Origin: Streptomyces diastaticus subsp. diastaticus
Lineage (GTDB): Bacteria; Actinomycetota; Actinomycetes; Streptomycetales; Streptomycetaceae
Assembly (NCBI RefSeq): GCF_011170125.1
Contig: NZ_BLLN01000002.1
Location: forward strand, 1,025,501 to 1,089,500
Direction of reading: 5' to 3'
DNA length: 64,000 nucleotides
Shown: in pieces, positions 3,567-25,398 of the stretch
Layout of the letters: the number at the start of each line of letters is the position of its first letter
Position numbering within the stretch: the stretch's first letter is position 1
The notes under the pieces: model-generated
Told to the model about the DNA's origin: nothing
Database searches by the model: none
The model's input: the letters and a program-made list of their open reading frames with translations, nothing else
Made by a program: the position numbers and the translations under genes

Positions 3567-3576
3567 CCACCGGGTC

Positions 3577-4496: not shown

Positions 4497-7389
<2,893 letters not shown>

Positions 7390-7665: not shown

Positions 7666-7705
7666 CCGCCCCGTTCCGTGATCTTCCGGAGCGGGGCGGT
7701 TTTCG
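7666..7705 (+). terminator. Rho-independent terminator downstream of topA
   Basis: CCGCCCCGTTCCG (7666-7678) pairs with CGGAGCGGGGCGG (7687-7699) with one G-T pair and an 8-nt loop, followed by TTTT. The rest of the 671-bp gap 7392-8062 shows no gene I can support, apart from the promoter candidate at its right end. Confidence 0.75.
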
Positions 7706-8050: not shown

Positions 8051-8056
8051 TAGGCT
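8051..8056 (+). promoter_or_regulatory. -10 hexamer of a likely leaderless tmk mRNA
   Basis: TAGGCT lies 6 nt before the ATG at 8063 and no Shine-Dalgarno is visible, so transcription probably starts at or next to the start codon. The -35 is weak. Confidence 0.45.
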
Positions 8057-8062
8057 GGCGGG

Positions 8063-11284: not shown

Positions 11285-11297
11285 GCCGTGTCCCGGA

Positions 11298-11338
11298 CGG
11301 GCCGCCCCGCTCCCCAGATGGAGGAGCGGGGCGGCCCG
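11298..11338 (+). terminator. Strong terminator after tmk
   Basis: A perfect 16-bp stem, CGGGCCGCCCCGCTCC (11298-11313) with its complement at 11323-11338, separated by a 9-nt loop and followed by GTGCTTT. It marks the end of the conserved tmk segment; unrelated fragments start right after it. Confidence 0.85.
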
Positions 11339-11361
11339 GTGCTTTCCGGCACCTGACCCCC

Positions 11362-11422
11362 GGTTCGGGTTCCACGGGTTCAGCAAGTCGTACAGCGCAG
11401 CGACATCAGCATCGGAGAACAT
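11362..11422 (-). pseudogene. Truncated N-terminus of a class I SAM methyltransferase
   Basis: The minus strand from ATG 11422 reads MFSDADVAALYDLLNPWNP, the usual first residues of a class I methyltransferase family of actinomycetes in which a VLDVGCGTG motif soon follows. Here similarity ends after about 20 codons, next to the tmk terminator, and no SAM motif follows. The rest has been lost. Recognition is from memory of the family N-terminus. Confidence 0.55.
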
Positions 11423-11449
11423 CGGCGAAAGTTGCCACCCTGATGAAGT

Positions 11450-11866
11450 GCAGACAAGCAGTGTGCTTGCCGATCGGGTGCCGACGGCTGGTCCCCGTGC
11501 GCCACCCGTACCGGTCGTCCCAGACGAGGGCGACTGCCGGCTGCCCGGGGGAGAAGAGGATGGCGGCGGCCAGGTGTGCGCCGCCGACGGTGCGCACCTG
11601 GACCTCACTGGACTCGGCCAGGCCGGCCTCCGCCAGGGTGCCAGCCGTCTTGGCGGAGCAGGGGTGGGCTTCGCGGGTGCGGAGTTCGGCGTCGGCTGCC
11701 GCGGTCGCTCCGCGGTGGGTGATCCGCGGATATCCGAGACGCTCGGCGGCCTCTGCGGTGTCGAGGTGAGGGTTGGCCTCGACGAGGTCGGCGATGCGCT
11801 CGCCGTGGATCTTGTTGAGGCCGTCGCGGGCGGCGGGGAACCTGTCGAGGCCGAGGGTGAAGGAGC
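11450..11866 (-). pseudogene. Remnant of a hypothetical protein (DUF6292-like C-terminus)
   Basis: Minus-strand codons read like a real protein over about 140 residues, including RIADLVEANPHLDTAEAA, AAILFSPGQPAVALVWDD and GWRTGTSRRHPIG. The hydrophobic-strand/VWDDRYGW/RRHP pattern resembles the C-terminal part of DUF6292-type actinobacterial proteins of integrative elements. Upstream the frame turns to non-coding composition with no start, and downstream it runs into the methyltransferase fragment. I treat it as a decayed 3' part. The family name is uncertain. Confidence 0.4.
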
Positions 11867-11994
11867 TGGGCCCCCTCGACGGAGCTCGCGCCCTGCGGCA
11901 ACGCCTCCAGGCCGTCGGCACCCGGCAAGCCCTCGCCGCCCGCCTGCACCGCTCCCAGGAACGGGTCTCCAGCGCCTCGCACTCCCGGGACTGA
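11867..11994 (+). pseudogene. Short 3' fragment of an unidentified gene
   Basis: The plus strand reads LDGARALRQRLQAVGTRQAL and then ARLHRSQERVSS before a stop. This is helical, protein-like composition with no start codon region of its own. It abuts the opposite-strand remnant at 11450-11866. I do not recognise the family. Confidence 0.25.
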
Positions 11995-12040
11995 CCCCCG
12001 GCACTGCAAGGGAAGCTCACAGCGGGGAAGGCGTCCGCTG

Positions 12041-12326
12041 AACTTCCGCGCCATGTAGGGCTGCCGCCGGACCGGATCGTGGAGCCGTACGACCACACCT
12101 GGAAGAACCCGGGGAGCATCACCACCGAGGACCTGCGCAGCCAGGCAGCCGAGATGGGACTCGCCGGCGTCGACGTCATCCTGCTCACCCCGGCGAGTAG
12201 ACCCGCCACGCCGCCGCCGTCTGGGCGCTCGCCCACACCCTGCTGATCCGCCTGGGGATCGGCGGACAGCGCGGACGGCTGACCGCCCCGCGCGAAGATG
12301 CCCAGATGTACACCACCGCCGCGTAA
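12041..12326 (+). pseudogene. DUF6884-like gene remnant with frameshift and stop
   Basis: One frame reads LPRHVGLPPDRIVEPYDHTW, then KNPGSITTEDLRSQAAEMGL and AGVDVILL. After a frame change near 12190 it continues TRHAAAVWALAHTLLIRLGI, then GGQRGRLTAPREDAQ up to TAA at 12326. This matches the C-terminal pattern of DUF6884-type proteins (EPYD, GSVT, AVWP, G.GGQ..L). The frame change and an in-frame TAG at the join make it a pseudogene. There is no start codon with the conserved N-terminus. Confidence 0.5.
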
Positions 12327-12350
12327 CCCGCCACACCCACTTGGAGCACC

Positions 12351-12491
12351 GTGAAGATCACCGTCGAAGGGGCCTCGGAGGAGTTCGAGCGCGAACTCCT
12401 CGACCTCGTCGCTGAGCACCGCCACGACTCGCCGTCACCGCGGACACCGAGTGGACGGTCGAGCGTGCCGAACGCTACCTCCGCCTGCTGA
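12351..12491 (+). pseudogene. Frameshifted small protein of mobile-element type
   Basis: GTG 12351 with GGAG 6 nt upstream opens VKITVEGASEEFERELLDLV and AEHR. The expected continuation LAVTADTEWTVERAERYLRL is found in another frame, so one or two bases are missing near 12425. In its own frame it stops at 12491 after 46 codons. The WTVERAERYLR segment is typical of small proteins carried on Streptomyces integrative elements, from memory. Function unknown. Confidence 0.4.
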
Positions 12492-12760
12492 CGGCAACTT
12501 CGACGATGAGAGCGACGACGAGGCAAATCCCCGTGCACCTTCCGATGAGCGGGGACCTGATCGAGATTTGCGCAGGTGGTGGTGGGGTTTACCTTGGTGC
12601 CGAAAGTATGCGTGTTAAGAGTTTCGTCTCTCTCAGAGTCCAAGCGTCTTCCCAGGTGGAGGCGCTCCAGGCCGCATTGTGGGCCCGCAGTCTGTGATGG
12701 ACGCGGCAAAAGTGTGGGGGGCCGCGCTTATGCTCAGTGCGAGGGTTCGCCGGGAACGCC

Positions 12761-12819
12761 GATGAGCCCCGCTGTTGAACCTTTGCTTTGGACGGCCGGG
12801 TTCAGACAGGGGGCTCATC
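12761..12819. other. Long imperfect hairpin
   Basis: GATGAGCCCC (12761-12770) pairs with GGGGCTCATC (12810-12819). The pairing continues, after single bulges, with CTGT/ACAG and TGAACC/GGTTCA, giving 20 bp around a 17-nt loop. It lies in the stretch 12492-12873, which otherwise shows no gene I can support. It is 55 bp upstream of the small gene at 12874. It could be a terminator, a 5' leader structure or an old mobile-element end. Confidence 0.55.
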
Positions 12820-12873
12820 AGGTGGTTCGGGCAACTCGCGACTTGATGAATCCCGAGTTCTCTGAGGAGAGAA

Positions 12874-13131
12874 GTGCCCAACCGCATTCACGAATGTACC
12901 TCGCGTGTCAGTTGCATGTGTGGTTCCGCCGCTGAGGAACAGCTGGCAGTGCCGCCCGTAGCGTTGATCTCGTCGCGCGCCGCACTGGTCTGCGTCATCG
13001 CGATCCTCTTCGGTGCGGCCGGGGGGTGGCTCACCTTCCTCGCCGGTGACAACGTGCCGGCTGCCGTGCTGGCCGGTCTGAGTGTGACCGGTCTCGCCGT
13101 ACCGAAGCTGCACACCCACATCGGCCGCTGA
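12874..13131 (+). CDS. Small membrane protein, unknown
   Basis: An 85-residue protein from GTG 12874, preceded by GAGGAGAG. The N-terminal 30 residues carry three cysteines (ECTSRVSCMCGS) and then two hydrophobic segments, ALVCVIAILFGAAGGWLTFL and VPAAVLAGLSVTGLAV. A shorter start at GTG 12955 would remove the Cys segment. It belongs to the insertion between tmk and holB. I do not recognise a family; a small holin-like or membrane accessory role is only a guess from size and topology. Confidence 0.5.
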   Translation: MPNRIHECTSRVSCMCGSAAEEQLAVPPVALISSRAALVCVIAILFGAAGGWLTFLAGDNVPAAVLAGLSVTGLAVPKLHTHIGR

Positions 13132-13246
13132 GGGTACCTGAGGCTCCGCCGACTGCCAGAAGTCATCGGTGGGGCCGCAGGCTCGCGGGATCAACACTCC
13201 CCGTGGGGCAATGCCGATCCGCCCTGACCAACGAAGGGGAAAGCAC

Positions 13247-13732
13247 GTGGACGCAGCATTAGCTGGCCTGGTCGGAACCGTGGCAGGAGCCCTGGCGGGC
13301 GCTTTCGGCAGCTGGCTGGCCCAGCGAGCACAGCTTCGTCTGCAACGGGAGAGCTTGGCGCACCAAGAGAGTATCCGGTGGGTGGACGACAAGTGGACCC
13401 TCCACCGCGACCTGCTGATCGCCTTGCGCAACTGGCGTGACTGCCTCATGCACCTGTGGCAGGAAGGGAACCGTGAGGGTCTCCACGACGCCCGTGCGAC
13501 GGCCTACCGGCTTGGGGTGGGAGCAGGCCTGATCGCCCAGCCGGGCACGCGAATCGCGATCAAGGAAGCGCGTAAGGGCCTCCTCGCCGGGCAGGCCGCG
13601 ATGGCACGGCAACAAGTCCCGCAAGACGCCACCGATCCGTGCAGCGAGGCGAAGCCGCTCCTCACTGCCCTGGAGGAAGCTCTCCACGTGGAACCTTCCT
13701 GGGCTGACCGTAGCGCGGCCGCAGAGCCATGA
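13247..13732 (+). CDS. Membrane-anchored helical protein, unknown
   Basis: A 161-residue protein from GTG 13247, with GAAGGGGAA 5-6 nt upstream. Residues 2-22 form one hydrophobic helix (LAGLVGTVAGALAGAFGSWL), followed by a basic helix with many Gln and Arg (AQRAQLRLQRESL) and then a mostly helical cytoplasmic region. This layout is common in small actinobacterial proteins on integrative elements. No catalytic motif is seen. It lies between the small membrane gene and the toxin-antitoxin-like pair, all on the same strand. Confidence 0.65.
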   Translation: MDAALAGLVGTVAGALAGAFGSWLAQRAQLRLQRESLAHQESIRWVDDKWTLHRDLLIALRNWRDCLMHLWQEGNREGLHDARATAYRLGVGAGLIAQPGTRIAIKEARKGLLAGQAAMARQQVPQDATDPCSEAKPLLTALEEALHVEPSWADRSAAAEP

Positions 13733-13783
13733 GCTGATCACTTCCAGGCAGAATCACTCCGCCCGACCATGGGAGAAACCACA

Positions 13784-14056
13784 GTGTCGTCCCCCCGCTC
13801 AGACCGATACGAGAACGTGCCCACCGCCTCGGTGTACGACACCTTCGCTGAACTGGCCACCCAGCTCACCGGTCGCTACATCCGTCTCTCCGATACCGCA
13901 CCGTCTGCCGCAGAGCGCGATCAGTGGTGGCAGAAGGTGCTGGAACTACGCGACACCAAGCGCGCAGTGCCTGCCTACGACCGCGCCGCGCTGATGGCTC
14001 ACATCAGCCAGTGGGAGGCGGAATTGGCCCGGCTCCAGGGCGATCACCGTGGCTGA
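13784..14056 (+). CDS. Antitoxin-like partner of a zeta-type toxin
   Basis: A 90-residue protein from GTG 13784, with GGGAGA 7 nt upstream; ATG 13769 in the same frame has no ribosome-binding site. It is helical with AERDQWWQKVLELRD and DRAALMAHISQWEAELARL. This pattern often precedes zeta-toxin-like genes in Streptomyces. It overlaps the next gene by 8 nt, as toxin-antitoxin pairs do. The epsilon-like role is inferred from position. If the toxin is dead, selection to keep this gene would be relaxed. Confidence 0.65.
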   Translation: MSSPRSDRYENVPTASVYDTFAELATQLTGRYIRLSDTAPSAAERDQWWQKVLELRDTKRAVPAYDRAALMAHISQWEAELARLQGDHRG

Positions 14057-14365
14057 GGCCCGGGAGGACTACTACCTCCCCGAGGAAGAGCTGCGGCGCC
14101 ACTTCGACGAGAGGGTCCGTGACTTCGTGTTCTCCGGCTACGCCCCCCAGGACCGGCCGGTGCTGATCCTGGTGGGCGGGCAGCCCGCCGCCGGGAAGAG
14201 CCAGGCGATGGCGGGCGCCGAGCAGCGCCACGCCGGCAGTCAGCTCGTCCCCCTCACCGGGGACGAGCTTCGGGCCTTCCACCCCCGGTACGCGGAGCTT
14301 CTCGCCGACCATCCGCTGCTCTTCCCGGACGCGACCGGCCAGGCGTCCGGCGCCTGGGTGCGGAT
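14049..14365 (+). pseudogene. Zeta-toxin-family kinase, truncated
   Basis: From GTG 14049 the frame reads a zeta-like P-loop kinase: VLILVGGQPAAGKSQAM near residues 38-54, then VPLTGDELRAFHPRY (the D-E-x-R substrate region) and ATGQASGAWVRM. Full zeta toxins use ATP to phosphorylate UDP-GlcNAc or similar substrates. Here the match stops after about 105 residues, where transposase sequence begins in another frame. The open frame continues to 14600 only with unrelated residues. The C-terminal half, including later catalytic residues, is missing, so activity is unlikely. Confidence 0.7.
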
Positions 14366-14695
14366 GCCGGCAGCCGGTGGGCGATCGAGGAATGCTTCCA
14401 GGCAGCGAAGAACGAATGCGGCCTGGACGAGTACGAAGTCCGCCACTACCCCGGCCGCCCAGGCCGCCGTGGAGGCCGTGGAAGGGGCTGCGGAAACGGC
14501 TCAGCCCTCGCCCCCCTCACCGTGGCGGAGATCCGACGGCTCCTGGACACTCACCTGCCGCACTCCGGAGCCGACCACGATCCCGTCACCCACGCACTGA
14601 ACTGGTCCGCCTGGAGAAGACGCCACCAGGCCATCGCCCGCCCCTGCCACTACCAAAAACGCAGCGCAGGACACGAACCGCTGCTGGAGTACTAG
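14366..14695 (+). mobile_element. 3' remnant of an IS701-type transposase
   Basis: In the frame of 14366 the DNA reads AGSRWAIEECFQAAKNECGL then DEYEVRHYPG, the conserved RWxIEExFQxxKxExGLDxYEVRxYPG segment of IS701/IS4-like DDE transposases, where the E is catalytic. After a frame-disturbed stretch the C-terminal part LTVAEIRRLLDTHLP, HALNWSAWRRRHQAIARPCHY follows to TAG 14695. The N-terminal two thirds are absent and at least one indel breaks the frame. It directly joins the truncated zeta gene, so the insertion or a later deletion destroyed both. Confidence 0.75.
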
Positions 14696-14812
14696 GGGCC
14701 CGAGCGGCTCCGCCCGTCGCGTTTGGGCCCTGTCAGTCGTGTCGCGGAGAATGGGGGCGGTGGGTTCGGTGGTGGGCTCGCGGCGGGGCGGATGCGGATG
14801 GAGGCGTGCCGG

Positions 14813-16024
14813 ATGGCGGTATGGGACGACCTGGTGGGCCAGGAGCGGGTGATCGGGCAGCTCGACGCGGCCGCCCGCGACGCCGACGCCTACGTGACGG
14901 CGGCGGCCTCCGGAAGCCCGCTGCCCGAGGCGTCCCGGATGACGCACGCCTGGCTGTTCACCGGGCCGCCCGGCGCGGGCCGGGCGGACGCGGCGCGGGC
15001 CTTCGCCGCCGCCCTCCAGTGCACCAGCCCGGACCGGGCCCTGCCGGGCGGCGCCCCTGGCTGCGGCTTCTGCGACGGCTGCCACACCAGCCTCATCGGC
15101 ACCCACGCCGACGTGGACGTCGTCCGTACCGACCTGCTCTCCATCGGCGTGAAGGAGACCCGCGACCTGGTCCGCCGCTCCCAGATGTCGCCCGCCGGCG
15201 GCCGCTGGCAGGTGATCGTCCTGGAGGACGCCGACCGCCTCACGGAAGGCGCGGGGAACGTCCTGCTCAAGGCGGTCGAGGAGCCCGCCTCGCGGACCGT
15301 CTGGCTGCTCTGCGCCCCGTCGCTGGAGGACGTGCTGCCGACGATCCGCTCGCGTTCCCGGCACCTGTCGCTGCGTACGCCGCCGGTGGAGGCCGTCGCC
15401 GACATCCTGGTCCGGCGTGACGGGGTCGACCCGGCGCTGGCGGCCTCCGTCGCCCGGGCCACACAGGGGCACATCGACCGGGCCCGGCGTCTGGCCACCG
15501 ACGAGCGGGCCCGCCTGCGTCGTGCCGCCGTCCTCAAGCTGCCACTGCGCGTCGGCGACGTGGGCGCGGGGCTGCGGGCCGCACAGGAGCTGATCGACGC
15601 GGCGAGCGAGGACTCCAAGCAGGCGGCCACCGAGACCGACGAGAAGGAGACCGAGGCGCTGCGGGCCGCCCTCGGTGGGCAGAGCGGCGGCCGGATGCCC
15701 CGTGGCACGGCCGGGGCCATGAAGGAGCTGGAGGAGAAGCAGAAGCGCCGACGCACCCGTTCCCAGCGTGACAGCCTCGACCTGGCCCTGGTCGACCTCA
15801 CGAGCTTCTACCGCGACGTGCTCACGCTCCAGTTCGGCTCGTCCCCCCAGGCCGTCGCCAACGTCGAGCTGCGCGACGCCCTGGAGCGGATCGCCGAGGA
15901 GAGCACCCCGGCCGCCACCCTCCGCCGCATCGAGGCCATCGCCGCCTGCCGCGACGCCCTCGACCGGAACGTCGCGCCCCTCCTCGCGGTGGAGGCGATG
16001 GCGATGGCGCTCCGGGCCGGATAG
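14813..16024 (+). CDS. holB: DNA polymerase III delta' subunit
   Basis: A 403-residue clamp-loader subunit. The AAA+ module starts with the degenerate P-loop FTGPPGAGRADAARAF near residue 48, where the usual Lys is replaced, as in delta' subunits. A Cys4 zinc module (C, then CGFCDGC) is near residues 72-92, and the sensor region holds IRSRSRHL instead of a catalytic SRC. A variable insert (residues 265-320) with Glu/Lys-rich helix KELEEKQKRRRTR precedes the C-terminal collar domain. ATG 14813 is preferred since GGAGG lies 8 nt upstream and MAVWDDLVGQERVI is the family N-terminus. In S. coelicolor it directly follows tmk; here a 3.4-kb insertion separates them. Confidence 0.93.
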   Translation: MAVWDDLVGQERVIGQLDAAARDADAYVTAAASGSPLPEASRMTHAWLFTGPPGAGRADAARAFAAALQCTSPDRALPGGAPGCGFCDGCHTSLIGTHADVDVVRTDLLSIGVKETRDLVRRSQMSPAGGRWQVIVLEDADRLTEGAGNVLLKAVEEPASRTVWLLCAPSLEDVLPTIRSRSRHLSLRTPPVEAVADILVRRDGVDPALAASVARATQGHIDRARRLATDERARLRRAAVLKLPLRVGDVGAGLRAAQELIDAASEDSKQAATETDEKETEALRAALGGQSGGRMPRGTAGAMKELEEKQKRRRTRSQRDSLDLALVDLTSFYRDVLTLQFGSSPQAVANVELRDALERIAEESTPAATLRRIEAIAACRDALDRNVAPLLAVEAMAMALRAG

Positions 16025-16172
16025 CGCGTCACGCCCCCGCGGCCCCGCAGACCGTGCGAGGCCCTCCCTCACCGTCGCCCGGACGAGTGGTTTGGCCGTC
16101 CCGGAGCCCAGAACGAAGGGCCTCCCCGCCCCACCCTTTGTCACTGACCGTAGTCGCGTCGGTTCCGCGCGT

Positions 16173-16178
16173 TAGAGT
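16173..16178 (+). promoter_or_regulatory. -10 hexamer of a likely leaderless mRNA
   Basis: TAGAGT lies 7 nt before ATG 16186 with no Shine-Dalgarno between. This fits the common actinomycete TANNNT leaderless promoter. The -35 is not clear. Confidence 0.5.
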
Positions 16179-16185
16179 CGGCCGC

Positions 16186-17769
16186 ATGGAGAACCGCCGA
16201 CCCCACCTCGCTCCCCTCCGCTCACCCCGCCGGGTGGTGACGGCCGTGCTCGCCGCCGCGGCCGTCGCCCTCGTGCCGGCGTGCAGTGCGGAGAGCACCA
16301 CGGCGGACGCCTCCGGTGACACCGTCCTCGCCGCCCTGCCCAAAGCGGTCCCCGAGGCGCTCGCCCCCTTCTACGGCCAGCGGCCGGCCTGGCGGACCTG
16401 CGAAGGCGCCGGGAAGGAGGAGTTCCAGTGCGCCACCCTCAAGGCGCCCCTGGACTACGACGACCCGGCGGCCGGCACCCTCGACCTCGCGCTCTCCCGC
16501 AAGAAGGCGACCGGCCCCGGCTCCCGCCTCGGCTCGCTCCTCGTCAATCCGGGCGGCCCCGGCGGTTCCGCCATCGGTTACCTCCAGTCGTACGCGGCCC
16601 TCGGTTATCCGGCGCCGGTCCGCGCCCGGTACGACATGGTCGCCGTCGACCCGCGCGGCGTAGCCGACAGCGAGCCCGTCACCTGCCTCGACGGCCCGGC
16701 GATGGACGCCCACACCGCCACCGACACCACCCCGGACACCCCGGCCGAGCGGCGGGCGCTCGTCTCCGCCTTCCAGAAGTACGGCAAGGGCTGCCAGGCC
16801 GACGCCGGCAAGACCCTCGGCCATGTCTCCACCATCGAGTCCGCCCGCGATCTCGACCTCGCCCGCTCCGCCCTCGGCGACAAGAAGCTGACCTACGTCG
16901 GCGCCTCGTACGGGACCTTCCTCGGCGCGACCTACGCCGGGCTGTACCCGCACCGCGTAGGCCGGCTGGTCCTCGACGGCGCCATGGACCCGACCCTCGA
17001 CGCCCGGCGGCTCAACCTCGAACAGACCGCCGGCTTCGACACCGCGTTCACCGCCTTCGCCGAGGACTGCGCCCGGCGCAAGGACTGCCCCCTCGGCACC
17101 GGCGGCCCCACGAGCGCCGGCCGGAACCTCACCGCCTTCTTCGACGAACTCGACGCCGACCCGCTCCCCACCGGTCAGGGCCGCGCCCTCACCGAGTCCC
17201 TCGCCACCATGGGCGTCGTCGCCGCCCTCTACGACGAGGCCGGCTGGCCCCAGCTCCGTACCGCGCTGACCAGCGCCGTCAAGGACCGCGACGGCAACGC
17301 CCTGCTCGCCCTCTCCGACCTCTACCACGAGCGCGACGCCGACGGCGGCTACCAGAACCTCATGTCGGCCAACGCCGCCGTCAACTGCCTCGACCTCCCC
17401 CCGGCCTTCGCCGATCCGGACGAGGTCGAGGCGGCCCTGCCAGAGTTCCGCAAGGCGTCCCCGGTCTTCGGCGAGGGCTTCGCCTGGTCCGCGCTGAACT
17501 GCGCCCAGTGGCCCACCCCCGCCACCTCGGGACCGCACCGCATCGAGGCGTCCGGCGCCGCCCCGATCGTCGTGGTCGGCACCACCCGCGACCCCGCGAC
17601 CCCGTACCGCTGGGCCGAAGGACTTGCCTCCCAGCTCGACTCCGCCACCCTCCTCACCTACGACGGCGACGGCCACACCGCCTTCGGCCGGGGCAGCGAC
17701 TGCGTCGACACTGCCATCAACACCTACCTCCTCGAGGGCACCCCGCCGGACGACGGCACCCGCTGCTGA
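16186..17769 (+). CDS. Secreted alpha/beta-hydrolase lipoprotein, tripeptidyl-aminopeptidase-like
   Basis: A 527-residue serine hydrolase of the SlpD/E and tripeptidyl aminopeptidase group (peptidase family S33, TAP-like C-terminal domain). A basic start, a hydrophobic helix and LVPAC give a lipoprotein signal with Cys near residue 30. The oxyanion segment is VNPGGPGGS, the nucleophile elbow is GASYGT near residue 240, and the late Asp and His are in TRDPATPYRWAEGL and GDGHTAFG. Such enzymes remove N-terminal peptides outside the cell. The gene lies between holB and tRNA-Thr as in other streptomycetes. Confidence 0.88.
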   Translation: MENRRPHLAPLRSPRRVVTAVLAAAAVALVPACSAESTTADASGDTVLAALPKAVPEALAPFYGQRPAWRTCEGAGKEEFQCATLKAPLDYDDPAAGTLDLALSRKKATGPGSRLGSLLVNPGGPGGSAIGYLQSYAALGYPAPVRARYDMVAVDPRGVADSEPVTCLDGPAMDAHTATDTTPDTPAERRALVSAFQKYGKGCQADAGKTLGHVSTIESARDLDLARSALGDKKLTYVGASYGTFLGATYAGLYPHRVGRLVLDGAMDPTLDARRLNLEQTAGFDTAFTAFAEDCARRKDCPLGTGGPTSAGRNLTAFFDELDADPLPTGQGRALTESLATMGVVAALYDEAGWPQLRTALTSAVKDRDGNALLALSDLYHERDADGGYQNLMSANAAVNCLDLPPAFADPDEVEAALPEFRKASPVFGEGFAWSALNCAQWPTPATSGPHRIEASGAAPIVVVGTTRDPATPYRWAEGLASQLDSATLLTYDGDGHTAFGRGSDCVDTAINTYLLEGTPPDDGTRC

Positions 17770-17893: not shown

Positions 17894-17967
17894 GCCGCCT
17901 TAGCTCAGATGGCCAGAGCAACGCACTCGTAATGCGTAGGTCTCGGGTTCGAATCCCGAAGGCGGCT
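17894..17967 (+). tRNA. tRNA-Thr (CGT anticodon)
   Basis: A 74-nt cloverleaf. The acceptor GCCGCCT pairs with AGGCGGC, and the discriminator is T. The D arm starts TAGCTCAG, the anticodon loop is CTCGTAA with anticodon CGT, and the T arm is CGGGTTCGAATCCCG. CCA is not encoded. It sits at the left edge of the accessory island, a typical integration place, but I found no second copy of its 3' end in the window. Confidence 0.97.
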
Positions 17968-17973
17968 CAGAAG

Positions 17974-18253: not shown

Positions 18254-18626
18254 TTAATTACGCGGAAGAGCCTGCTCTTGGCCCCGATGCCTGCCGGTTC
18301 TCTTGCCAGAGGCCGACTGCCCCACCTCGGCGGATTCGCTCGGCCGGGTGGAGCGGGCCGGGCGGTTCTCGTTGAAGAAGGATTGCCAGACCCGTTCCTG
18401 CAGCGCGCCGATGCAGGCGCCGCACGCGTACATCGGGGCCTGGGCCCCGGCGACTCTGGCTGGGCCGATCCACAGGACGCGCGTCCACCGCTGCCCGCAG
18501 TAGAGCCAGCAGAGGCCGTCGACCCACTCGTTGCCGTCGTCGGTGGCCGCCGGTGAGGGCAGTCCTCCCCGGGCGAACTCGGCGATCCCGGGAACACCCT
18601 GTGCTGTAGGGCGACTTCCGTCAGCA
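18254..18626 (-). pseudogene. Small Cys-rich protein with an apparent frameshift
   Basis: ATG 18626, 20 nt after the CYTH stop and with GGGAGGGAG in front, opens MLTEVALQHRVFPGSPSSPG. The protein-like part lies in another frame and runs to TAA at 18254: EWVDGLCWLYCGQRWTRVLW, then YACGACIGALQERVWQSFF. CWLYC and CGAC could form a Cys4 metal site. That second frame has no ATG, GTG or TTG start, so one base is probably inserted or lost near 18560. The tail is long and polar. The spacing suggests it is the last gene of the radical SAM operon. Family not recognised; a CTG start or a programmed shift cannot be excluded. Confidence 0.5.
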
Positions 18627-18646
18627 TCGCTCGTCTCCCTCCCCGA

Positions 18647-19234
18647 TCAACGGTCCTGGGCCGTGGGAGAAGCGTCCTTCTGCTTCCCAGCTTCGGAGAA
18701 CAGGAGCGTGGGTTCGGCGAGGATGTCGCGGCCGGACTCGCTCTTGTAGATCTCGTCGACGCTGCCGAACCGGGCCTCGGAGTAGTCGAGGTCCAGCAGG
18801 GCGGCGGCCTGGCGTACCGATGCCTCGTCGGGTCCTTCGATCTCCAGGAAGGTGGGCAGGTCGGGCCAGGTGTCGAAGTCGAAGGCGACCTCACCCAGGC
18901 GCCATTCCTCGCGGTAGTTCTCCTGGTACCGGACCTCGGTGAGGCCGACCCGGCGCAGGATGTCGGCCATGGCGTGCAGGTCGGTGACCTCGGTTTCGAT
19001 CTCCTTGGTGCCGTCGATCGTCGTTGCGTCGGTGACCTGCTTGAGCGTGAGCGTCGAGCGGGTGCCCTCGTCCCGCAGACGGATCCAGGCTCCACCGTCG
19101 AGGGAGTCGTTCTCGAAGATCTTGCGGGTGAGGAGCGTGCGGGGGAATGCCTGGACCGCATTGAGGGCGCTCAGTTTGTTCTGGAGGCCGGCGACGTCGA
19201 CGGCCAGGAACTTGGCCTCGTATTCGTGCTTCAT
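18647..19234 (-). CDS. CYTH-domain protein (class IV adenylate cyclase / triphosphatase fold)
   Basis: A 195-residue triphosphate-tunnel enzyme. The signature ExExK is E4-Y-E6-A-K8. Further tunnel residues are in WIRLRDEG, LTLKQ, KEIETEV and FLEIEGPD. CYTH proteins bind a triphosphate and divalent metal inside a barrel; known members make cAMP or hydrolyse thiamine triphosphate, tripolyphosphate or similar compounds. The sequence does not tell which. It starts 11 nt after the methyltransferase stop, so the genes are probably translated together. The C-terminal 25 residues are polar and likely disordered. Fold call firm, substrate unknown. Confidence 0.85.
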   Translation of the reverse strand: MKHEYEAKFLAVDVAGLQNKLSALNAVQAFPRTLLTRKIFENDSLDGGAWIRLRDEGTRSTLTLKQVTDATTIDGTKEIETEVTDLHAMADILRRVGLTEVRYQENYREEWRLGEVAFDFDTWPDLPTFLEIEGPDEASVRQAAALLDLDYSEARFGSVDEIYKSESGRDILAEPTLLFSEAGKQKDASPTAQDR

Positions 19235-19245
19235 GGGGTCTTCTC

Positions 19246-19908
19246 TCAGAAGTGGTCGGTGAGGGTTGATGTCCGGGCCGCGAGCAGGAGGCCCATGCGG
19301 TGGGTGTGGTCGTGCAGCTGGCCGACGTGGGCGCGCTCCGTGAACTCAGTGGTGCGCAGGGTGAGCAGGACCTCCCAGTCGCCGATGAAGTGGGGGTGAA
19401 GGCGTTCCGGGGAGGTGTAGTGCTCGATCATGTGGTGGCGTCTTTCGACGGGCATCATGAACTCCGCGCCGAAGATGCCGCCTGGGCGAACCAGGCGCTG
19501 CATACGGTCGACGAACTCGCCGAGCGGGCGGTGGTGGTTGGCACTGTAGTGCCACGAGCAGCTCGTCCAGACCGCGTCGCACTGCAGGCCCAGGGGCTCG
19601 CCGTTCAGGAAATCGTCCTCAACAACCTCTACGCGGTCGTGGAGTTCTTCGAGCTTCAGGCGATCGATCAGTCCCAACGCGTGGGCCTGGCTGTCACCCG
19701 GGAGGTGGACGTCGCCCCCGTGGAGGGCGACCGCGTCGCGTTCGATGGCGACGACGCGGTAGCCGGCGGCGGCGAGGGGCAGGACGAACTTGCCGTCGCT
19801 CGCGCCGACCACCGCGACGGTGGCGTCAGGGGCGACACGTTCCCGCAACGTGGCGAGGAACTGCGGGAAGAACGTGAGGGTGTGCTCCCACAGGCTCTGA
19901 GTCTGCAT
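19246..19908 (-). CDS. Class I SAM-dependent methyltransferase
   Basis: A 220-residue Rossmann methyltransferase. Motif I is AVVGASDGKFVLPLAAAGY near residues 31-49, motif II ends in VVAIERD, and AVWTSCSWHYSANHH carries the motif IV region. A His-rich stretch, ERRHHMIEHYTSPERLHPHF, lies near residues 155-175. ATG 19908 has AAGGAG about 9 nt upstream. It lies in the middle of the radical SAM-kinase-CYTH operon. A small-molecule substrate is likely given its size and neighbours, but this is inference. Confidence 0.85.
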   Translation of the reverse strand: MQTQSLWEHTLTFFPQFLATLRERVAPDATVAVVGASDGKFVLPLAAAGYRVVAIERDAVALHGGDVHLPGDSQAHALGLIDRLKLEELHDRVEVVEDDFLNGEPLGLQCDAVWTSCSWHYSANHHRPLGEFVDRMQRLVRPGGIFGAEFMMPVERRHHMIEHYTSPERLHPHFIGDWEVLLTLRTTEFTERAHVGQLHDHTHRMGLLLAARTSTLTDHF

Positions 19909-20468
19909 GGGGGTGCGCTCCTTGCGTATCGGTATCCATGATCACTCGGAGGACCTCGTCGGGGCTGCGCCCCGTGGTGTCGACGCGATGCATCGGGAAC
20001 GGAGGCGTAGGCGTCCGTCACCCGGTCCGTAGCGGTCTCGATCAGTGAGTCCCACCGCGACACCGGCTTGTTCCGCCCAGCGAGTCGACGTTGTCTCTCG
20101 TCGTCGTCGCAGACGAGGTGGTAGGTAGCGGGTGTCGGCAGCCAGCTCGGCAGGGTGATACCGAGTTGTGCCCCCAGGGCCCGGTGAGTGGTGAGGCACC
20201 GGGCGAAGTAGCTCTCGACGACGACCGGGACGCCGGCGTCGAGGTGGTGCTGGATCTCCTCGGCCGCGGTGAACAGGCCCGAGAGGTAGAAGCACATCCG
20301 TGCCTCTACATTCGTCCGCTCGTCCAGCGCCTGTCTGAGCGGCTGGTAGGGCAGCGGGACGGTAGCGACGAGGACGGCCTGTCGGGCGGCGGCGAGCATG
20401 GGCGCCAGGGTGGATTTGCCGGTGCCGCGTAACCCCTCCAGGCTCTCGAAGCGTGGGTGATCAGGCAC
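19668..20468 (-). CDS. P-loop kinase, dTMP-kinase-like, with a 3' frameshift
   Basis: From GTG 20468 the protein reads a nucleotide-kinase fold: P-loop EGLRGTGKST near residues 11-20, VVVESYFARCLTTHRALGA as the DR(Y)xxS-like region near residue 90, and a LID-like VCDDDERQRRLAGRN. The start overlaps the radical SAM stop by 8 nt. Coding sense ends near residue 155: after DAYAS the expected FPMHRVDTTGRSPDEVLRVI continues in another frame, implying one extra base near 19997-20002. As written, the frame runs 240 nt into the methyltransferase gene, which is abnormal. The catalytic core is intact. Nucleotide, nucleoside or other phosphate acceptor cannot be told apart. Confidence 0.72.
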   Translation of the reverse strand: MPDHPRFESLEGLRGTGKSTLAPMLAAARQAVLVATVPLPYQPLRQALDERTNVEARMCFYLSGLFTAAEEIQHHLDAGVPVVVESYFARCLTTHRALGAQLGITLPSWLPTPATYHLVCDDDERQRRLAGRNKPVSRWDSLIETATDRVTDAYASVPDASRRHHGAQPRRGPPSDHGYRYARSAPPCRLRACGSTPSRSSRSSSPRCGNVSPLTPPSRWSARATASSSCPSPPPATASSPSNATRSPSTGATSTSRVTARPTRWD

Positions 20469-21363
20469 GGCCGTACACCACGTCCGGTACCGCGAGGGTG
20501 AGTTCGTCGACGGACGAGGGCTTGTGGACGATGCGTCCTGCCGCCTTCTCGTACCAGAAGGCGTGCGCGTCCTTGCCCACGGCCTTGCAGGACATGGTCA
20601 GCGCACCGCGCGGGTCGACCTCGATGCGGTCGATTTCGCGAGGACCGTCGGAGGGCGCGCACACCTGCGGGGCACCGTCCTCGGAGAGGTCCTCGTCGAC
20701 GATCACCTCCAAGGGCAGATCGGCTGACGCCAGCTCGTCCCGGAGCCGCCCGTAGGCGGAAGGGGAGGTGACCAGCAGCTCGGGATGATCGGCGGCGTTG
20801 CCGACCGGCCGCAGGTGGTGGAGCTTGAGCTGCCGGACCCCGAGCTGCGCCAAGGCCCTTCCGAGGGGCAGGACTTCGGCGATGTTCCGCGAGGTGACGG
20901 TCATGGTCGCACCGGTCGGAACGCCGAGATCCCGAGCCAGCCGGAGCGCCTCCAGGGCGCTCTTGTAGCTGCCCTGCTTTCGGATGCCGTCGTTGGTCGA
21001 CCCGACGCCCTCCAGCGAAACCCTGAGCAGGTCCAGGGAGGGGGCGATCTCGGTCAGACGGCGCTCGATCCGGTACCCGTTGGTGCAGATCTCGACGCGC
21101 AGGCCCAGTTCCTCCTTGGCGTGGCGGACGACCTGCGCGAGGTCCCGGTGGACGAAGGGCTCTCCGCCAAGCAGGGTCACTGCCTCGGTGCCGTACTCGT
21201 CCCGCATCAGGGTGAGAAGACCCGCGGCTTCGTCGACGGTGAAGGCGTCGGCGTACTGAAGCCGCTTGCCGTGGAAGCAGTGCAGGCACGTGAAGTTGCA
21301 GCGGTAGAGCAGCTGCAGGTACAGCATGCGGATCTTCTTGATCCCGGTGACTTCCTCGATCAC
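20461..21363 (-). CDS. Radical SAM enzyme with short SPASM-like tail
   Basis: A 300-residue radical SAM protein. The cluster motif CNFTCLHC puts Cys22, Cys26 and Cys29 in CxxxCxxC. The SAM motif LLGGEPF follows, and VEICTNGY and LLRVSLEGVG mark later strands. The C-terminal region has two more cysteines (PQVCAPSDG, TMSCKAVG), fewer than a full SPASM domain. It makes a 5'-deoxyadenosyl radical; the substrate is unknown. GTG 21363 is chosen because AAGGAG lies 6 nt upstream; the frame is open further up but reads non-coding. It is the first gene of the operon, 84 bp downstream of a candidate operator. Confidence 0.88.
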   Translation of the reverse strand: MIEEVTGIKKIRMLYLQLLYRCNFTCLHCFHGKRLQYADAFTVDEAAGLLTLMRDEYGTEAVTLLGGEPFVHRDLAQVVRHAKEELGLRVEICTNGYRIERRLTEIAPSLDLLRVSLEGVGSTNDGIRKQGSYKSALEALRLARDLGVPTGATMTVTSRNIAEVLPLGRALAQLGVRQLKLHHLRPVGNAADHPELLVTSPSAYGRLRDELASADLPLEVIVDEDLSEDGAPQVCAPSDGPREIDRIEVDPRGALTMSCKAVGKDAHAFWYEKAAGRIVHKPSSVDELTLAVPDVVYGRA

Positions 21364-21446
21364 GTCGGCTCCTTCGGCTGATTGCCTGGTGGGAGCCTGA
21401 TAGTGGCCTTCTGCTCGGGGACCTCGACACCGCGTTCGGGGACGGT

Positions 21447-21470
21447 CCAAGGACGTCCTGGGACGTCTTC
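21447..21470 (+). promoter_or_regulatory. Candidate operator 1 (GGACG direct repeat)
   Basis: The core CAAGGACGTCCTGGGACG holds two GGACG half-sites spaced exactly 10 bp. It lies upstream of the radical SAM operon and touches the HAD stop codon. A site matching at 16 of 18 core positions is found at 22201-22224. Binding by the island's HTH protein is inference. Confidence 0.6.
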
Positions 21471-22161
21471 AGTGACCTGCGAAGGACTCCAGAATGCCGA
21501 GGACACGCTTCGTGTCCGACAGGTCGGGCAGGACTTCGACGGCTCCGGCGGCGGTCAGTTCCTCCTGGGTGTGGATGCCGGAGGCGACGGCGAGGACGCT
21601 GGAGCCTGTGGTCAGAGCCGCCTCCACGTCACGAGGGGTATCCCCGACGAGGACGGTGGGGATGTCGGCCGCAACACCATGAAGCCGTTGAGCGCGCTCG
21701 CGGGCGACAGCGACCAGGTGGGGGCGGAGTTCGGCGTCCGCTCCGTAGGCGCCGACCGGTAGATCAAGCAAGGAGTCGAGCCCGAACGCGGCAAGCTTCA
21801 CACGGGCGTTGGCGGAAATGTTGCCGGTGAGTACGGAGGAGATCCAACCGGTCTGAGCCGAGGGGGCTTTCAGGGCGTCGTGCACACCGGGCAGGGCGGT
21901 CCCACGCCTGCGTAGCTCCTCCAGGCGCGCCTCCCCTGCCTGGGCGAGCGCCGTCTCGACGAAGGGCCAGCCGGGTACGGGCAGCCCGTCACGGACGAAC
22001 ATGTCGCGCATGATCAGCCGATCCGTACGCCCCTCAGTACGCGCGGGCTCCGTGGGTTCGCGACCTGAGAGGCCACGAAAGGCAGCGGCGTAGATCTCCT
22101 TGCTGACCCCCGCGTTCTCGATGAGGGTGTGGTCGATGTCCCACAGGACGAAGAGCTCCAT
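21469..22161 (-). CDS. HAD-superfamily hydrolase (phosphatase)
   Basis: A 230-residue haloacid dehalogenase-fold phosphatase of the phosphoglycolate phosphatase type. Motif I is LWDIDHTLIE with nucleophile Asp8 and acid-base Asp10, motif II is SVLTGN, motif III has KLAAFGL, and motif IV is VGDTPRDVEA. A helical cap lies between motifs I and II. ATG 22161 is only 6 nt after TACTCT, a likely -10, so the mRNA may be leaderless. The gene is divergent from the HTH-NUDIX pair and its promoter region holds the second operator. Substrate unknown; a phosphorylated intermediate of the island pathway is plausible. Confidence 0.87.
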   Translation of the reverse strand: MELFVLWDIDHTLIENAGVSKEIYAAAFRGLSGREPTEPARTEGRTDRLIMRDMFVRDGLPVPGWPFVETALAQAGEARLEELRRRGTALPGVHDALKAPSAQTGWISSVLTGNISANARVKLAAFGLDSLLDLPVGAYGADAELRPHLVAVARERAQRLHGVAADIPTVLVGDTPRDVEAALTTGSSVLAVASGIHTQEELTAAGAVEVLPDLSDTKRVLGILESFAGH

Positions 22162-22167
22162 GCCGCC

Positions 22168-22206
22168 AGAGTAGGCAGTCCGCGAGGTTCCACTACAGCG
22201 GACTGC
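22168..22206 (-). promoter_or_regulatory. HAD promoter -10 and adjoining inverted repeat
   Basis: On the minus strand TACTCT (22168-22173) lies 6 nt before the HAD ATG. Just upstream, GCAGTCCGC (22175-22183) and GCGGACTGC (22198-22206) form a perfect 9-bp inverted repeat with a 14-nt spacer. Its right arm overlaps operator 2. Confidence 0.5.
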
Positions 22207-22224
22207 GTCCCAAAACGTCCTTGC
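22201..22224 (-). promoter_or_regulatory. Candidate operator 2 (GGACG direct repeat)
   Basis: On the minus strand the core is CAAGGACGTTTTGGGACG, again with GGACG half-sites 10 bp apart. It lies between the divergent HAD and HTH genes, 25 bp before the HTH start. It overlaps TTGCGC (22221-22226), a possible -35 of the HTH gene, where a bound repressor would block transcription. Confidence 0.6.
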
Positions 22225-22248
22225 GCGATCACGCGCCGTGCCGATTCG

Positions 22249-23031
22249 ATGGCTGCTGTGAACAACCGACTGCGCACCGTGCTCGGCCAACGGGGCGTCT
22301 CGCCCGATGCACTCGCCGAGATCTGCGAGGTAGATCCCAAGACGGTCAGCCGATGGCTGGGCGGACGGATTCCCCATGCACGGCACCGCTTCCGCGTCGC
22401 GCGACACCTGCGCGTCGAAGAGACCTTTCTCTGGCCCGAGCCGTCCAAGCGCCCAGGCCGGCCGAAGGACGGGTTAGGCACCGAGCTGGTCGGCACCTAC
22501 CAGAACCGAGCCAGCGTGCCCCGGGGGGTATGGCTCGCACTATTGCGAGAAGCGCGGCACGAGATCGGCGTCCTCGTCTTCTCCGGCACCTTCTTCGCCC
22601 AGTCCAACCCCCACGTCGCCAAGATGCTCTCCGAGCGCGCCGCCGACGGTGTGCGGGTTCGTCTGTGCTTCGGCGATCCCGGTGGACACGCAGTCGCCGT
22701 ACGGGGCCGCGAGGAGGGAATCGGCGACACCCTCGCCGCCAAGATCCGCGCCTCACTGACGTACTACCGTCCGCTGCTGGGCGAGGCCGGGTGCGGCGTA
22801 CGACTCCACGACACCACCCTCTACACGTCCATGTTCCGCTACGACGACAACTTGCTCGTCAACCCGCACATCTGGGGCCAACCGGCCAGCGCCAACCCCG
22901 TCCTGCACCTCAAGAGGGCAGTCGATACAGGGTGGTTCGACAACTACGCGGAAAGCTTCGACGCCGTCTGGGCCGCCGCGAGGCCATGGGCACCCGACCA
23001 GGAGAGGACCGCCGACCATGGGCAGGACTGA
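22249..23031 (+). CDS. HTH regulator with DUF5919-like C-terminal domain
   Basis: A 260-residue protein. Residues about 5-55 form an XRE-type helix-turn-helix (LAEICEVDPKTVSRWLGG). A basic Pro/Arg linker (KRPGRPKDG) leads to a second domain of about 170 residues with EIGVLVFSGTFFA, VRVRLCFGDPGG and HDTTLYTSMFRYDDNLLVNP. This resembles the DUF5919 effector domain of actinobacterial HTH proteins, whose ligand is unknown to me. ATG 22249 is given; GTG 22258 is possible if the mRNA is leaderless. Its stop overlaps the NUDIX start by 14 nt. It is the obvious candidate to bind the two GGACG sites. Confidence 0.82.
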   Translation: MAAVNNRLRTVLGQRGVSPDALAEICEVDPKTVSRWLGGRIPHARHRFRVARHLRVEETFLWPEPSKRPGRPKDGLGTELVGTYQNRASVPRGVWLALLREARHEIGVLVFSGTFFAQSNPHVAKMLSERAADGVRVRLCFGDPGGHAVAVRGREEGIGDTLAAKIRASLTYYRPLLGEAGCGVRLHDTTLYTSMFRYDDNLLVNPHIWGQPASANPVLHLKRAVDTGWFDNYAESFDAVWAAARPWAPDQERTADHGQD

Positions 23032-23485
23032 GTACTACAACGATCCCTCTGCTCCGAAGGCGAACACCCTCATCCCGGCCAGCAACCTGCTCGTCGCCGA
23101 CGAGACGGGCGCCATCCTCCTCCAGCGGCGCCGCGACACCGGCCAGTGGGCTCTCCCTGGCGGAGCCCAGGACATCGGCGAGACCGCAGCCGAGTGCGCG
23201 GTGCGCGAGTGCTTGGAGGAGACCGGGATCATCGCGGAACTCACCGGGTTCCTCGGCGTCTACACCAACCCGAACCACATCGTCGCGTACACCGACGGCG
23301 AGATCCGCCAGCAGTACGAGAACACCTACATCGGCCGGCCCGTCGGCGGAGTGCCCATGATCAACGACGAGGCTGACGGCGTCCGCTTCGTCCAGCCGGC
23401 CGACCTCGACCAGTACGACATCCACCCGAGCATGCGCCAGCAGATCGGGGACTACCTCGCCGGCACCTACCCCTACCTCGGCTGA
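23018..23485 (+). CDS. NUDIX hydrolase
   Basis: A 155-residue NUDIX enzyme that cleaves nucleoside diphosphates linked to another group. The box GX5EX7REUXEEXGU is complete: G49, E55, R63-E64, E67-E68, G70-I71 in GGAQDIGETAAECAVRECLE and following residues. It starts inside the end of the HTH gene (14-nt overlap), so the two are translated together. The C-terminus overlaps the convergent HD gene by 13 bp. Substrate is not readable. Pairing with a DUF5919-like regulator suggests that the regulator senses the NUDIX substrate or product; this is inference. Confidence 0.92.
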   Translation: MGRTEYYNDPSAPKANTLIPASNLLVADETGAILLQRRRDTGQWALPGGAQDIGETAAECAVRECLEETGIIAELTGFLGVYTNPNHIVAYTDGEIRQQYENTYIGRPVGGVPMINDEADGVRFVQPADLDQYDIHPSMRQQIGDYLAGTYPYLG

Positions 23486-24036
23486 GCTGCCAGGGCGGCT
23501 TCCACTCGCTCCACGGAGGCAAAGATCTCCGGAGCCGCCCGGCGGATGAACCGCCCGACCACGCTGTCGTCCCCGTAGCGGCTGCGGATCTCTGCGACCC
23601 GGTCCTGCGCGGTGGTTCGGTCGCCGTCGGGCGTGGTCGTCATGTCGCAGTACACGAGGGCGTCCACCAGCAGTGGCTCCTCCAGCAAGGGGAACTCCGT
23701 CGCGAGCTCCTCGCGCAACCCGCGCTCCTCTGCCTCAAGGAGCGCAAACGAGTGGTTCCCGACCAACCGCACCAGCCGCTTGTCGGCCCTGTGCTCGTCA
23801 CGGAGGAACCGGGCTCCGTCCAGGGGATGGAAGCCCGTCACCGCCAGGCGAGGCGCATACCCAATGTCATGCAGCGTGGCGGCGGCGACAAGCAGGCTGG
23901 CGTGTTGGTTGAGGATCTGACCTACTTCGGCGGCGCGGTTGGCCACTCCCTGCGTATGCGCCCACCTCCGTGGAAGTGTGCAGCTGAGTTCGGCCCTCGC
24001 GATGTGCGTCGCCCAGTCCTCGATGTGATCGCCCAT
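23473..24036 (-). CDS. HD-domain phosphohydrolase
   Basis: A 187-residue HD-superfamily metal phosphohydrolase. Visible ligands: His in PRRWAHTQGV near residue 26, the HD pair in TLHDIGYAP near residue 58, NHSF near residue 95 and Asp in VYCDMTT near residue 130. Such enzymes hydrolyse nucleotides or phosphoesters. ATG 24036 gives the family-like N-terminus (GDHIEDWATHIARAEL); longer starts exist but read poorly. It converges on NUDIX. The deleted IS5-type element lies 125 bp upstream of its start, so its native promoter may have been moved away. Confidence 0.85.
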   Translation of the reverse strand: MGDHIEDWATHIARAELSCTLPRRWAHTQGVANRAAEVGQILNQHASLLVAAATLHDIGYAPRLAVTGFHPLDGARFLRDEHRADKRLVRLVGNHSFALLEAEERGLREELATEFPLLEEPLLVDALVYCDMTTTPDGDRTTAQDRVAEIRSRYGDDSVVGRFIRRAAPEIFASVERVEAALAAQPR

Positions 24037-24160
24037 GTCTGGCTCTCTGCCCAGGGCGCCGTCGGCCCAAGCCGCCGCACTCGATGACAACTGCACGCGG
24101 TAGCCGCCGCTCCCTCGCAGCGTCATCTTCATCTGGCTCGACGTATGACCGTAGGAGTAA

Positions 24161-24894
24161 GACCGTGTCCTATGTGGCGAGGTGGTCGTTGGGCTCGTCA
24201 TGGGGAGGGGTACGTGGAGTTGGATTGTTCCGGACGGGTTGTGGGAGATCGCGAAGCCGCTGATCCCGCCGTCGAAGGTGCGGCCGCAGGTCGGTGGGAC
24301 GCAGAACACGCCTGATGAGACGCTGTTCGCCGCGATCATCTATGTTCTGGTCAGCGGCTGCGCCTGGCGGGCCTTGCCGCCGTGTTTCGGCGTCTCCAAA
24401 TCGACAGTCCATCGCCGGTTCTTGATCTGGTCGCGAGCCCCGTTGACCGGGGCAAGGCGGGTTGCACGATGCACGTCCTGTCGGACGCGAACGGACTGCC
24501 CCTCCTCGTCGGTCTCACCGCGGTCAACACCCACGACAGCCAGGCACTGAAGCCCATGGTGCTCGGTCACCAAACGAGACACGACCCCCACCGCGGCCGG
24601 CACTTCAAACCCCAGCGCCTGCACGCCGATAAGGCCTACGACATCCCTGAGCTGCGGAAATGGCTCCGCGGGAAACGCATCGGCGTCCGCATCGCGCGCA
24701 AGGGCGTCGAGTCCAGCGAGCGACTCGGGTGCCGCAGGTGGGTGATCGAGCGGACCATGTCCTGGCTGACAGGCTACCGCCGGCTCAACCACCGCTACGA
24801 ACGCCATCCCCGCAACTACCTGGCCTTCCTCGGCCTCGTCGCAGCCCTCTGCTGCTACAAACGACTCCTTCGCCTCACCACATAGGACACGGTC
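24161..24894 (+). mobile_element. IS5-family insertion sequence, internally deleted
   Basis: Terminal inverted repeats are GACCGTGTCCTATGTGG at 24161-24177 and its complement at 24878-24894, with similarity reaching a few bases further in. The element is about 734 bp, shorter than usual for this group. The transposase stop lies inside the right repeat. No clear target duplication is seen: TAA on the left, CTA on the right. It lies upstream of the HD gene at the right edge of the island. Confidence 0.85.
24182..24885 (+). pseudogene. IS5-family transposase with internal deletion and frame change
   Basis: The first frame reads GRGTWSWIVPDGLWEIAKPL and ATG 24200 is a usable start, continuing to CFGVSKSTVHRRFLIWSRA. 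Intact relatives then carry about 50 residues with the first catalytic Asp (DSAHVRAKKGG). Here these are missing, and the next frame resumes at PVDRGKAGCTMHVLSDANGL, then HADKAYDIPELRKWLRGK and WVIERTMSWLTGYRRL to TAG 24885. The second Asp and the Glu (WVIERT) remain but the first Asp is gone. It cannot transpose itself, though it might be mobilised by a full copy elsewhere. Confidence 0.85.
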
Positions 24895-25398
24895 CTATTT
24901 TTTTTGGCCTTGGAGCGTGGGCATGTGCCGTCACGGAAGCCCGTGCATGAACTGTGTAGGGCAGAGGCTTCACTCTCCGGGGGCGACAGTGTGCCTCCGA
25001 GGTCGCGGCGTTCTTCGCGGCGCGCAGGGCGGAGCGCTCCCGGGGGCCCGTGACGGCCGGAGAGGTCAGCGGTGCCGCATGTCCGGTCCGTCGGCCGCAC
25101 GTGAGGGCGGAACCGTCCGAGGAGGGGGAGTAGTGCTGGGTCCGGCGCGCCCCCTCGGGTACGCGCTCGGTCTCCTCGTGGGTCGCCGAACCGGTGGCAG
25201 TGGCAACAGCCGTCTTCCGGGTTCGGTCGCCGTCGGTGGCCTGGGCCGTGGCGACGGCTGCCCCCGTGAGGGCGCCGGTCACAGCGAAGGCCGCCGCCGG
25301 TTCCGCCTCGCCCGCGGTGTTTCCGGCGGGCACCGGCATACGCGCGGAGAGTCTCCGGCACCTCCCGGACGCCGGGCGTGCGGCGCCGGGGCAGCGGG
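24895..25398. other. Region without a supported gene
   Basis: It begins with a run of eight T beside the insertion sequence. A minus-strand open frame across it contains FAVTGALTGAAVATAQA, which looks a little like a signal peptide, but the rest is low complexity and lacks a ribosome-binding site. I see no gene I can support. Confidence 0.4.

Follow-up and report, generated by a model that had tools for sequence, protein, structure and literature searches.

A conserved radical SAM, kinase, methyltransferase and CYTH gene block beside tRNA-Thr in Streptomyces diastaticus, best explained as the cargo of a small integrative element

In Streptomyces diastaticus subsp. diastaticus, a compact set of genes for radical S-adenosylmethionine (SAM), P-loop kinase, methyltransferase, CYTH, HAD, helix-turn-helix (HTH), NUDIX and HD proteins lies directly behind a tRNA-Thr gene, and the question raised by this locus is whether these genes form one system and, if so, what the system makes and whom it serves. 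The locus was analysed within a stretch of 64,000 nucleotides of contig NZ_BLLN01000002.1 (positions 1,025,501 to 1,089,500), which is called the window here and to which all coordinates refer. The block is a real conserved system under purifying selection. Its payload is a conserved and apparently unpublished one that stands under a control switch of a known mobile-element kind. In the open part of PubMed Central (PMC), no paper on DUF5919 and, among the papers listed, none on this gene set was found, and the searches gave no name for the system, in keeping with the first-pass annotation, which had been made from the sequence alone and had proposed an unnamed accessory system.

The block is bounded on the left by the tRNA-Thr (CGT) gene (17894-17968, plus strand, ARAGORN), which is the left attachment site of the element, and on the right by an insertion sequence (24158-24897, plus strand) with a DDE transposase in two frames and 25-nucleotide inverted ends. 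Its G+C content is about 0.66-0.69, as against about 0.70-0.75 in both flanks. On the minus strand lie, from left to right, the genes for a small Cys-rich protein with a CxxxC...CxxC pattern (18254-18627), a CYTH/triphosphate-tunnel protein of 195 amino acids (18647-19234; PF01928, 38.5 bits, cut-off 23.2), a class I methyltransferase of 220 amino acids (19246-19908; Methyltransf_11, 21.2 bits, exactly at the cut-off of 21.2), a P-loop kinase of the thymidylate-kinase kind (19668-20468; PADLOC PDC-M51B, 70.6 bits), a radical SAM enzyme of 300 amino acids with the CxxxCxxC motif (20461-21363; PF04055, 78.8 bits, and family alignments) and a HAD-fold phosphatase of 230 amino acids (21469-22161; PF12710, 40.9 bits). 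These are followed on the plus strand by an XRE HTH regulator with DUF5919, 260 amino acids long (22249-23031; PF19319, 28.1 bits, cut-off 23.5), and a NUDIX hydrolase of 155 amino acids with an intact Nudix box (23018-23485; PF00293, 69.5 bits), and on the minus strand by an HD-domain phosphohydrolase of 187 amino acids (23473-24036; PF01966, 36.9 bits). The radical SAM gene and the kinase start share 8 nucleotides, the gap between the methyltransferase and CYTH genes is 11 nucleotides, and the overlaps of HTH with NUDIX and of NUDIX with the convergent HD gene are 14 and 13 nucleotides, respectively. Profile searches and ARAGORN thus agree with the gene list, strands, coordinates, tRNA position and tight gene junctions read in the first pass, including the DUF5919-like regulator, for which the match spans part of the PF19319 profile.

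Conservation of the block was evaluated by a scan of GTDB contigs, from which 66 loci were obtained as the base set for locus counts; they span Streptomyces, Kitasatospora, Actinacidiphila, Streptantibioticus, Sphaerimonospora, Nocardia, Nocardiopsis, Planosporangium and Gandjariella. The four-gene core (radical SAM, kinase, methyltransferase and CYTH) was found together in 64/66 loci, and all eight main genes, a count from which the Cys-rich gene is excluded, in 54/66, with identical order and strands in 54/54. A conserved block of at least five genes had been named beforehand as the mark of a system, and these loci exceed it. Since the arrangement recurs across species, chance is ruled out as its source. 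Among the 66 loci the kinase was present in 65, the methyltransferase in 64, the HTH regulator in 60, HD in 59 and HAD in 57 (it was not recognisable in five Nocardia loci), while the Cys-rich gene was found in at least 41, a lower bound because the frameshifted window sequence served as query. The 12 incomplete loci include fragments and loci ended by a contig edge; the four-gene core stands alone, in differing gene orders, in L107, L111 and L113. The radical SAM gene was present in 20/246 Streptomyces genomes and in 5/394 genomes of the class-wide search, the window's own genome being included in both counts, and the latter figure indicates that distant cores are rare; the radical SAM gene was not found in plasmids (E 1e-20) or phages (E 1e-10).

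The ratio of nonsynonymous to synonymous substitution rates (dN/dS), calculated only from pairs with dS of 0.1-1.2, had median values from 0.095 for NUDIX, the lowest, to 0.333 for the kinase, and such low values indicate functional constraint on the genes. Between the radical SAM enzyme and the regulator, protein distances showed a correlation of 0.92 (47 loci with all genes), and between HD and the other genes a lower one of 0.30-0.45, which indicates that HD is exchanged more often; the correlations are not corrected for kinship, and common ancestry alone inflates them. In intact relatives the kinase gene extends about 83 nucleotides into the methyltransferase gene in a different frame (L024, 9536-9618).

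GGACG repeats, spaced by 10-11 nucleotides, are shared by the two promoters of the block. A putative payload operator of three repeats (21440-21465, plus strand) lies 5' of the radical SAM gene and a putative operator pair, GGACG-N5-GGACG (22206-22220, minus strand), between HAD and HTH, both from a tandem-site scan. The sites had been noticed in the first pass and are real: a tandem GGACG was present within 160 bp upstream of radical SAM in 58/66 loci and between HAD and HTH in 45/55 loci tested, and 160/185 tandem occurrences in 1.29 Mb fall in these two places, whereas 0.003 per 160 bp would be expected from the remaining DNA. Among 78 HAD/HTH intergenic stretches, a set in which some genomes occur more than once and the window is counted too, 65 carried the tandem site, compared with 0.09 expected from mononucleotide shuffles. 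The eight loci without a site upstream of radical SAM are four from Nocardia and four in which no HTH was found; in L069 and L114 the site is present and HTH was not found in the fetched DNA. From this co-occurrence in DNA sequence we infer that the regulator binds the GGACG sites.

The HTH, NUDIX and HD genes recur beyond this block. A three-gene set of mdp (HD), nud (Nudix) and xre is given by Ghinet et al. 2011 (PMC3218068) as common to four Frankia actinomycete integrative and conjugative elements (AICEs), Sco5349, pMEA100 and pSE211. A DUF5919-type regulator was found in 128/246 Streptomyces genomes (E 1e-60) and 83/388 class-wide genomes (E 1e-45), most of the copies being more distant, and 40 module contexts, selected and not random, were fetched. 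In six loci the module stands beside a second payload of radical SAM, phosphoketolase-like, enolase-superfamily, YdeI/OmdA-like, HAD, methyltransferase and creatininase genes, with all seven in L150 (371-7246), L167, L168 and L171 and six in L151 and L152; a HAD gene adjoining the regulator was not found in L171. In L183 it lies beside integrase, RepSA, DUF2637 and FtsK genes (Pfam), and a similar AICE context was seen by eye in L175, L176, L177, L184 and others. A tandem GGACG occurred near the payload start in 6/6 second-payload loci and, for 13/19 regulator copies less than 50% identical to that of the window, in the 150 bp upstream of the gene; it was absent in L158-L160 and L178-L180. Because the module and its tandem site occur beside both, a single type of switch is shared by transfer elements and by metabolic payloads.

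Partial sets were also encountered. HAD, HTH, NUDIX and HD are kept without a clear operon in L155-L157 and L169, and in L166 the module and the Cys-rich gene are present and the core is lost. L146-L149 and L153 were considered as further payloads and not counted, as they hold module remnants only (NUDIX, sometimes with HD and a piece of HTH). The lone NUDIX of L148 and L149 (9001-9465 in each) is about 90% identical to that of the window, with the rest of the module absent, and two radical SAM genes and a cupin-like gene lie near NUDIX in L148 and likewise in L153.

The surroundings of the block are best explained by cargo of a mobile element that had integrated at the 3' end of tRNA-Thr. A repeat of the tRNA 3' part, 22-95 bp long, was found across the block in 13 loci, ten from the base set plus L023, L040 and L165, as expected of a tRNA-targeted element; the window itself lacks it. 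Gene lists inside the elements were made for 12 of these 13, L101 being left out: the elements are 5.2-17 kb long, each contains radical SAM, and the core is complete in 10/12 (exceptions L040 and L114). One of them, L104, is a 6.8-kb element with the eight genes and one 69-codon open reading frame. The element of L023, which stands at the tRNA-Thr gene used in the window too, measures 5.5 kb and no longer has NUDIX and HD; past the block, at a distance of 5.4 kb, the 3' part of the tRNA is repeated over 43 bp. In at least 7/36 other Streptomyces (G003, G005, G007, G011, G015, G021 and G025) the tRNA-Thr 3' part was present a second time about 3-20 kb downstream, and the site looks like an integration hot spot. 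A tRNA gene was found in the fetched DNA of 29/66 loci, often Thr or Lys, some of them being unrelated tRNA clusters. With the queries used, integrase-like matches were obtained in 13/66 loci, some of them short, and relaxase matches in 23/66; relaxase, MobC and DUF2637 were confirmed by Pfam in L027. RepSA-type replication genes and FtsK/TraSA-type transfer genes, by which a complete AICE is recognised, were not found in the window or the 66 loci with the Rep and Tra queries from L183, L176 and L177.

Further genes were seen near some blocks: extra cargo in L090 (3442-7257), namely genes resembling by eye those for a DNA cytosine methylase and for Vsr; extra cargo of several genes without identification inside the element of L087 (1678-6948); and, by eye, CRISPR-Cas type I-E-like genes a few kb from the block in L039 (about 12810-16681, locus turned). 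In the window, a second dip in G+C content (0.64-0.67) lies at 12000-13999, where the predicted genes are all short, to the left of a DNA polymerase III-like gene.

The window copy is the degenerate, worn remains of such an element. Compared at the DNA level with four near relatives (L023, L049, L050 and L051), the kinase gene and the Cys-rich gene, the latter near its start, each carry a one-base frameshift. The reading frame of the kinase is lost at about residue 158, and the protein of most relatives has 213 amino acids; an intact kinase is found in a cluster of 214 protein sequences nearly identical to that of the window, so the break is private to the window strain or its assembly. The second attachment repeat is absent, the insertion sequence abuts the right edge of the block, and the integrase queries applied gave no match in the window. 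Decay of cargo is described as common in such integrative elements (PMC9513070). Both the cargo status and the broken state were beyond what the first-pass annotation could see.

As to function, we consider, with a probability of roughly 0.55, that the block represents the cargo and the control region of a small integrative element and that its switch-controlled operon directs the synthesis of a phosphorylated, modified molecule resembling a nucleotide. The XRE-DUF5919 protein, of which the N-terminal HTH is of the phage-repressor kind, would repress by binding the GGACG sites; residues 76-250 have a PLD/TrmB-like fold by fold comparison, and this domain may sense a small, probably phosphate-bearing ligand. 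On release of the repressor the molecule would be produced, with the radical SAM enzyme altering a sugar or base, the kinase adding a phosphate, the methyltransferase decorating the product and CYTH acting on a (tri)phosphate. The CYTH protein belongs to its superfamily by a Pfam score above the cut-off and by the charged tunnel motifs E-x-E, R-x-R and E-x-E, which are kept in 12/12 aligned homologues, and its closest solved structure is Saci_0718, a tunnel enzyme of the tripolyphosphate type; the score for class IV adenylate cyclase CyaB fell below the curated cut-off (37.2 versus 57.95 bits, TIGR00318). HAD, NUDIX, of which the Nudix box is conserved among homologues, and HD would strip phosphates from the product or a related signal and so reset the switch. 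The beneficiary would be the element, through a signal or the exclusion of rivals or phages, and not primary metabolism. A phosphorylated small molecule with regulated removal had been proposed in the first pass; the enzymes suit such a molecule, but NUDIX, HTH and HD are not confined to this pathway, and product removal by NUDIX, HAD and HD is only one possibility because NUDIX-HTH-HD is a known AICE set that also stands beside other payloads.

The cargo could instead be directed against phages in the manner of viperin, with the radical SAM enzyme making a nucleotide that would terminate chains or poison a polymerase, the kinase activating it and NUDIX, HD and CYTH limiting self-harm. This we regard as rather unlikely, although several matches point to it: the PADLOC viperin profile (78.1 bits), the viperin-associated kinase profile (38.4 bits) and PDC-M51B (70.6 bits), as well as the fold of the radical SAM enzyme (predicted model, pLDDT 88), for which CTP-bound viperin ranks with the best matches. 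Within the four-gene core of L113 (Gandjariella, 3151-6560) a GreA/GreB-like gene suggests a possible link to RNA polymerase, and the element of L090 has the DNA-methylase-like gene seen by eye. The curated viperin score is however far short, at 53.4 versus 180 bits (NF038283), and two other radical SAM proteins tested also match viperin profiles, which makes the specificity weak. For the PADLOC candidate PDC-M51, no component other than PDC-M51B was found among the eight window proteins scanned, and a literature search on it yielded nothing informative.

The block could also be a hitch-hiking natural-product cluster which makes a secreted nucleoside-like antibiotic for the host, with HAD, NUDIX and HD as self-resistance and the element only as vehicle. 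BlsE of blasticidin S biosynthesis is the nearest solved structure by single sequence, a 35%-identical radical SAM protein of L162 (5820-14413) is encoded among thymidylate-synthase-like, carbamoyltransferase-like, glycosyltransferase-like and kinase genes, and L107 has a cytidine-deaminase-like gene. Against these, the core consists of four enzymes only, the conserved block is without a transporter or large scaffold enzyme, and the control module is of a type native to such elements and governs transfer genes as well, so that we hold this explanation to be improbable. By eye, the L162 neighbourhood resembles a nucleoside-antibiotic cluster; in L107 (Nocardiopsis, 7690-12203) an ornithine/diaminopimelate-decarboxylase-like gene joins the four-gene core together with the cytidine-deaminase-like one. 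A pathway for a ribosomally synthesized and post-translationally modified peptide (RiPP), with the Cys-rich protein as substrate of the radical SAM enzyme, is very improbable: SkfB, a RiPP maturase, was the top fold match, ahead by about 1 Z unit, and the Cys-rich gene occurs in at least 41/66 loci, but it was unrecognised in 25/66 (partly owing to a weak query), the nearly always present kinase, methyltransferase and CYTH are not known to take part in radical SAM RiPP pathways, and the single invariant Cys in the C-terminal part (family alignments) is too few for a SPASM domain.

The element-borne operon for a modified, phosphorylated nucleotide-like molecule may be extended, as a doubtful proposal, to a small-molecule signalling circuit of mobile elements, in which a modified nucleotide from the four-gene core would be detected by the PLD-like repressor and destroyed by NUDIX, HD and HAD. 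If so, the molecule would report to the element whether the host or its neighbours already carry it, a chemical reason would be given for the conjugal immunity conferred by a Nudix hydrolase in pSAM2, and the second payload would make a different signal dialect, each dialect being read by its own regulator. The Nudix proteins of actinomycete integrative elements, unexplained so far, are linked here to a switch whose DNA site is defined and which has a PLD-like sensor, and the old question of their substrate is now testable. Two metabolic payloads under such a switch are added, descriptions of either not having been found in the open part of PMC. Should the product be a signalling or chain-terminating nucleotide, a new bioactive class would be present in 20/246 sampled Streptomyces genomes.

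Compared with known systems, the block differs from prokaryotic viperins, which convert an NTP to its 3'-deoxy-3',4'-didehydro form, and their kinases by the added methyltransferase, CYTH and mobile-element switch and by a score that does not reach the curated cut-off. It differs from BlsE, a cytosylglucuronate decarboxylase, by 63 bits versus a curated cut-off of 400 (TIGR04466), and other blasticidin genes were not recognised in the block. The regulator differs from TrmB and TrmBL2 by its N-terminal HTH of the XRE type. The Nudix protein which confers conjugal immunity in pSAM2 is Pif (PMC3218068); an assignment of the window NUDIX to Pra of pSAM2 was rejected, since the Nudix protein named there is Pif and the Pra-like open reading frames of the AICE loci are, by eye, separate genes of 117-118 amino acids. 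With the mdp-nud-xre set of AICEs the window shares neighbouring HD, Nudix and XRE genes; the difference is that its module is joined to HAD and to a radical SAM-kinase-methyltransferase-CYTH operon.

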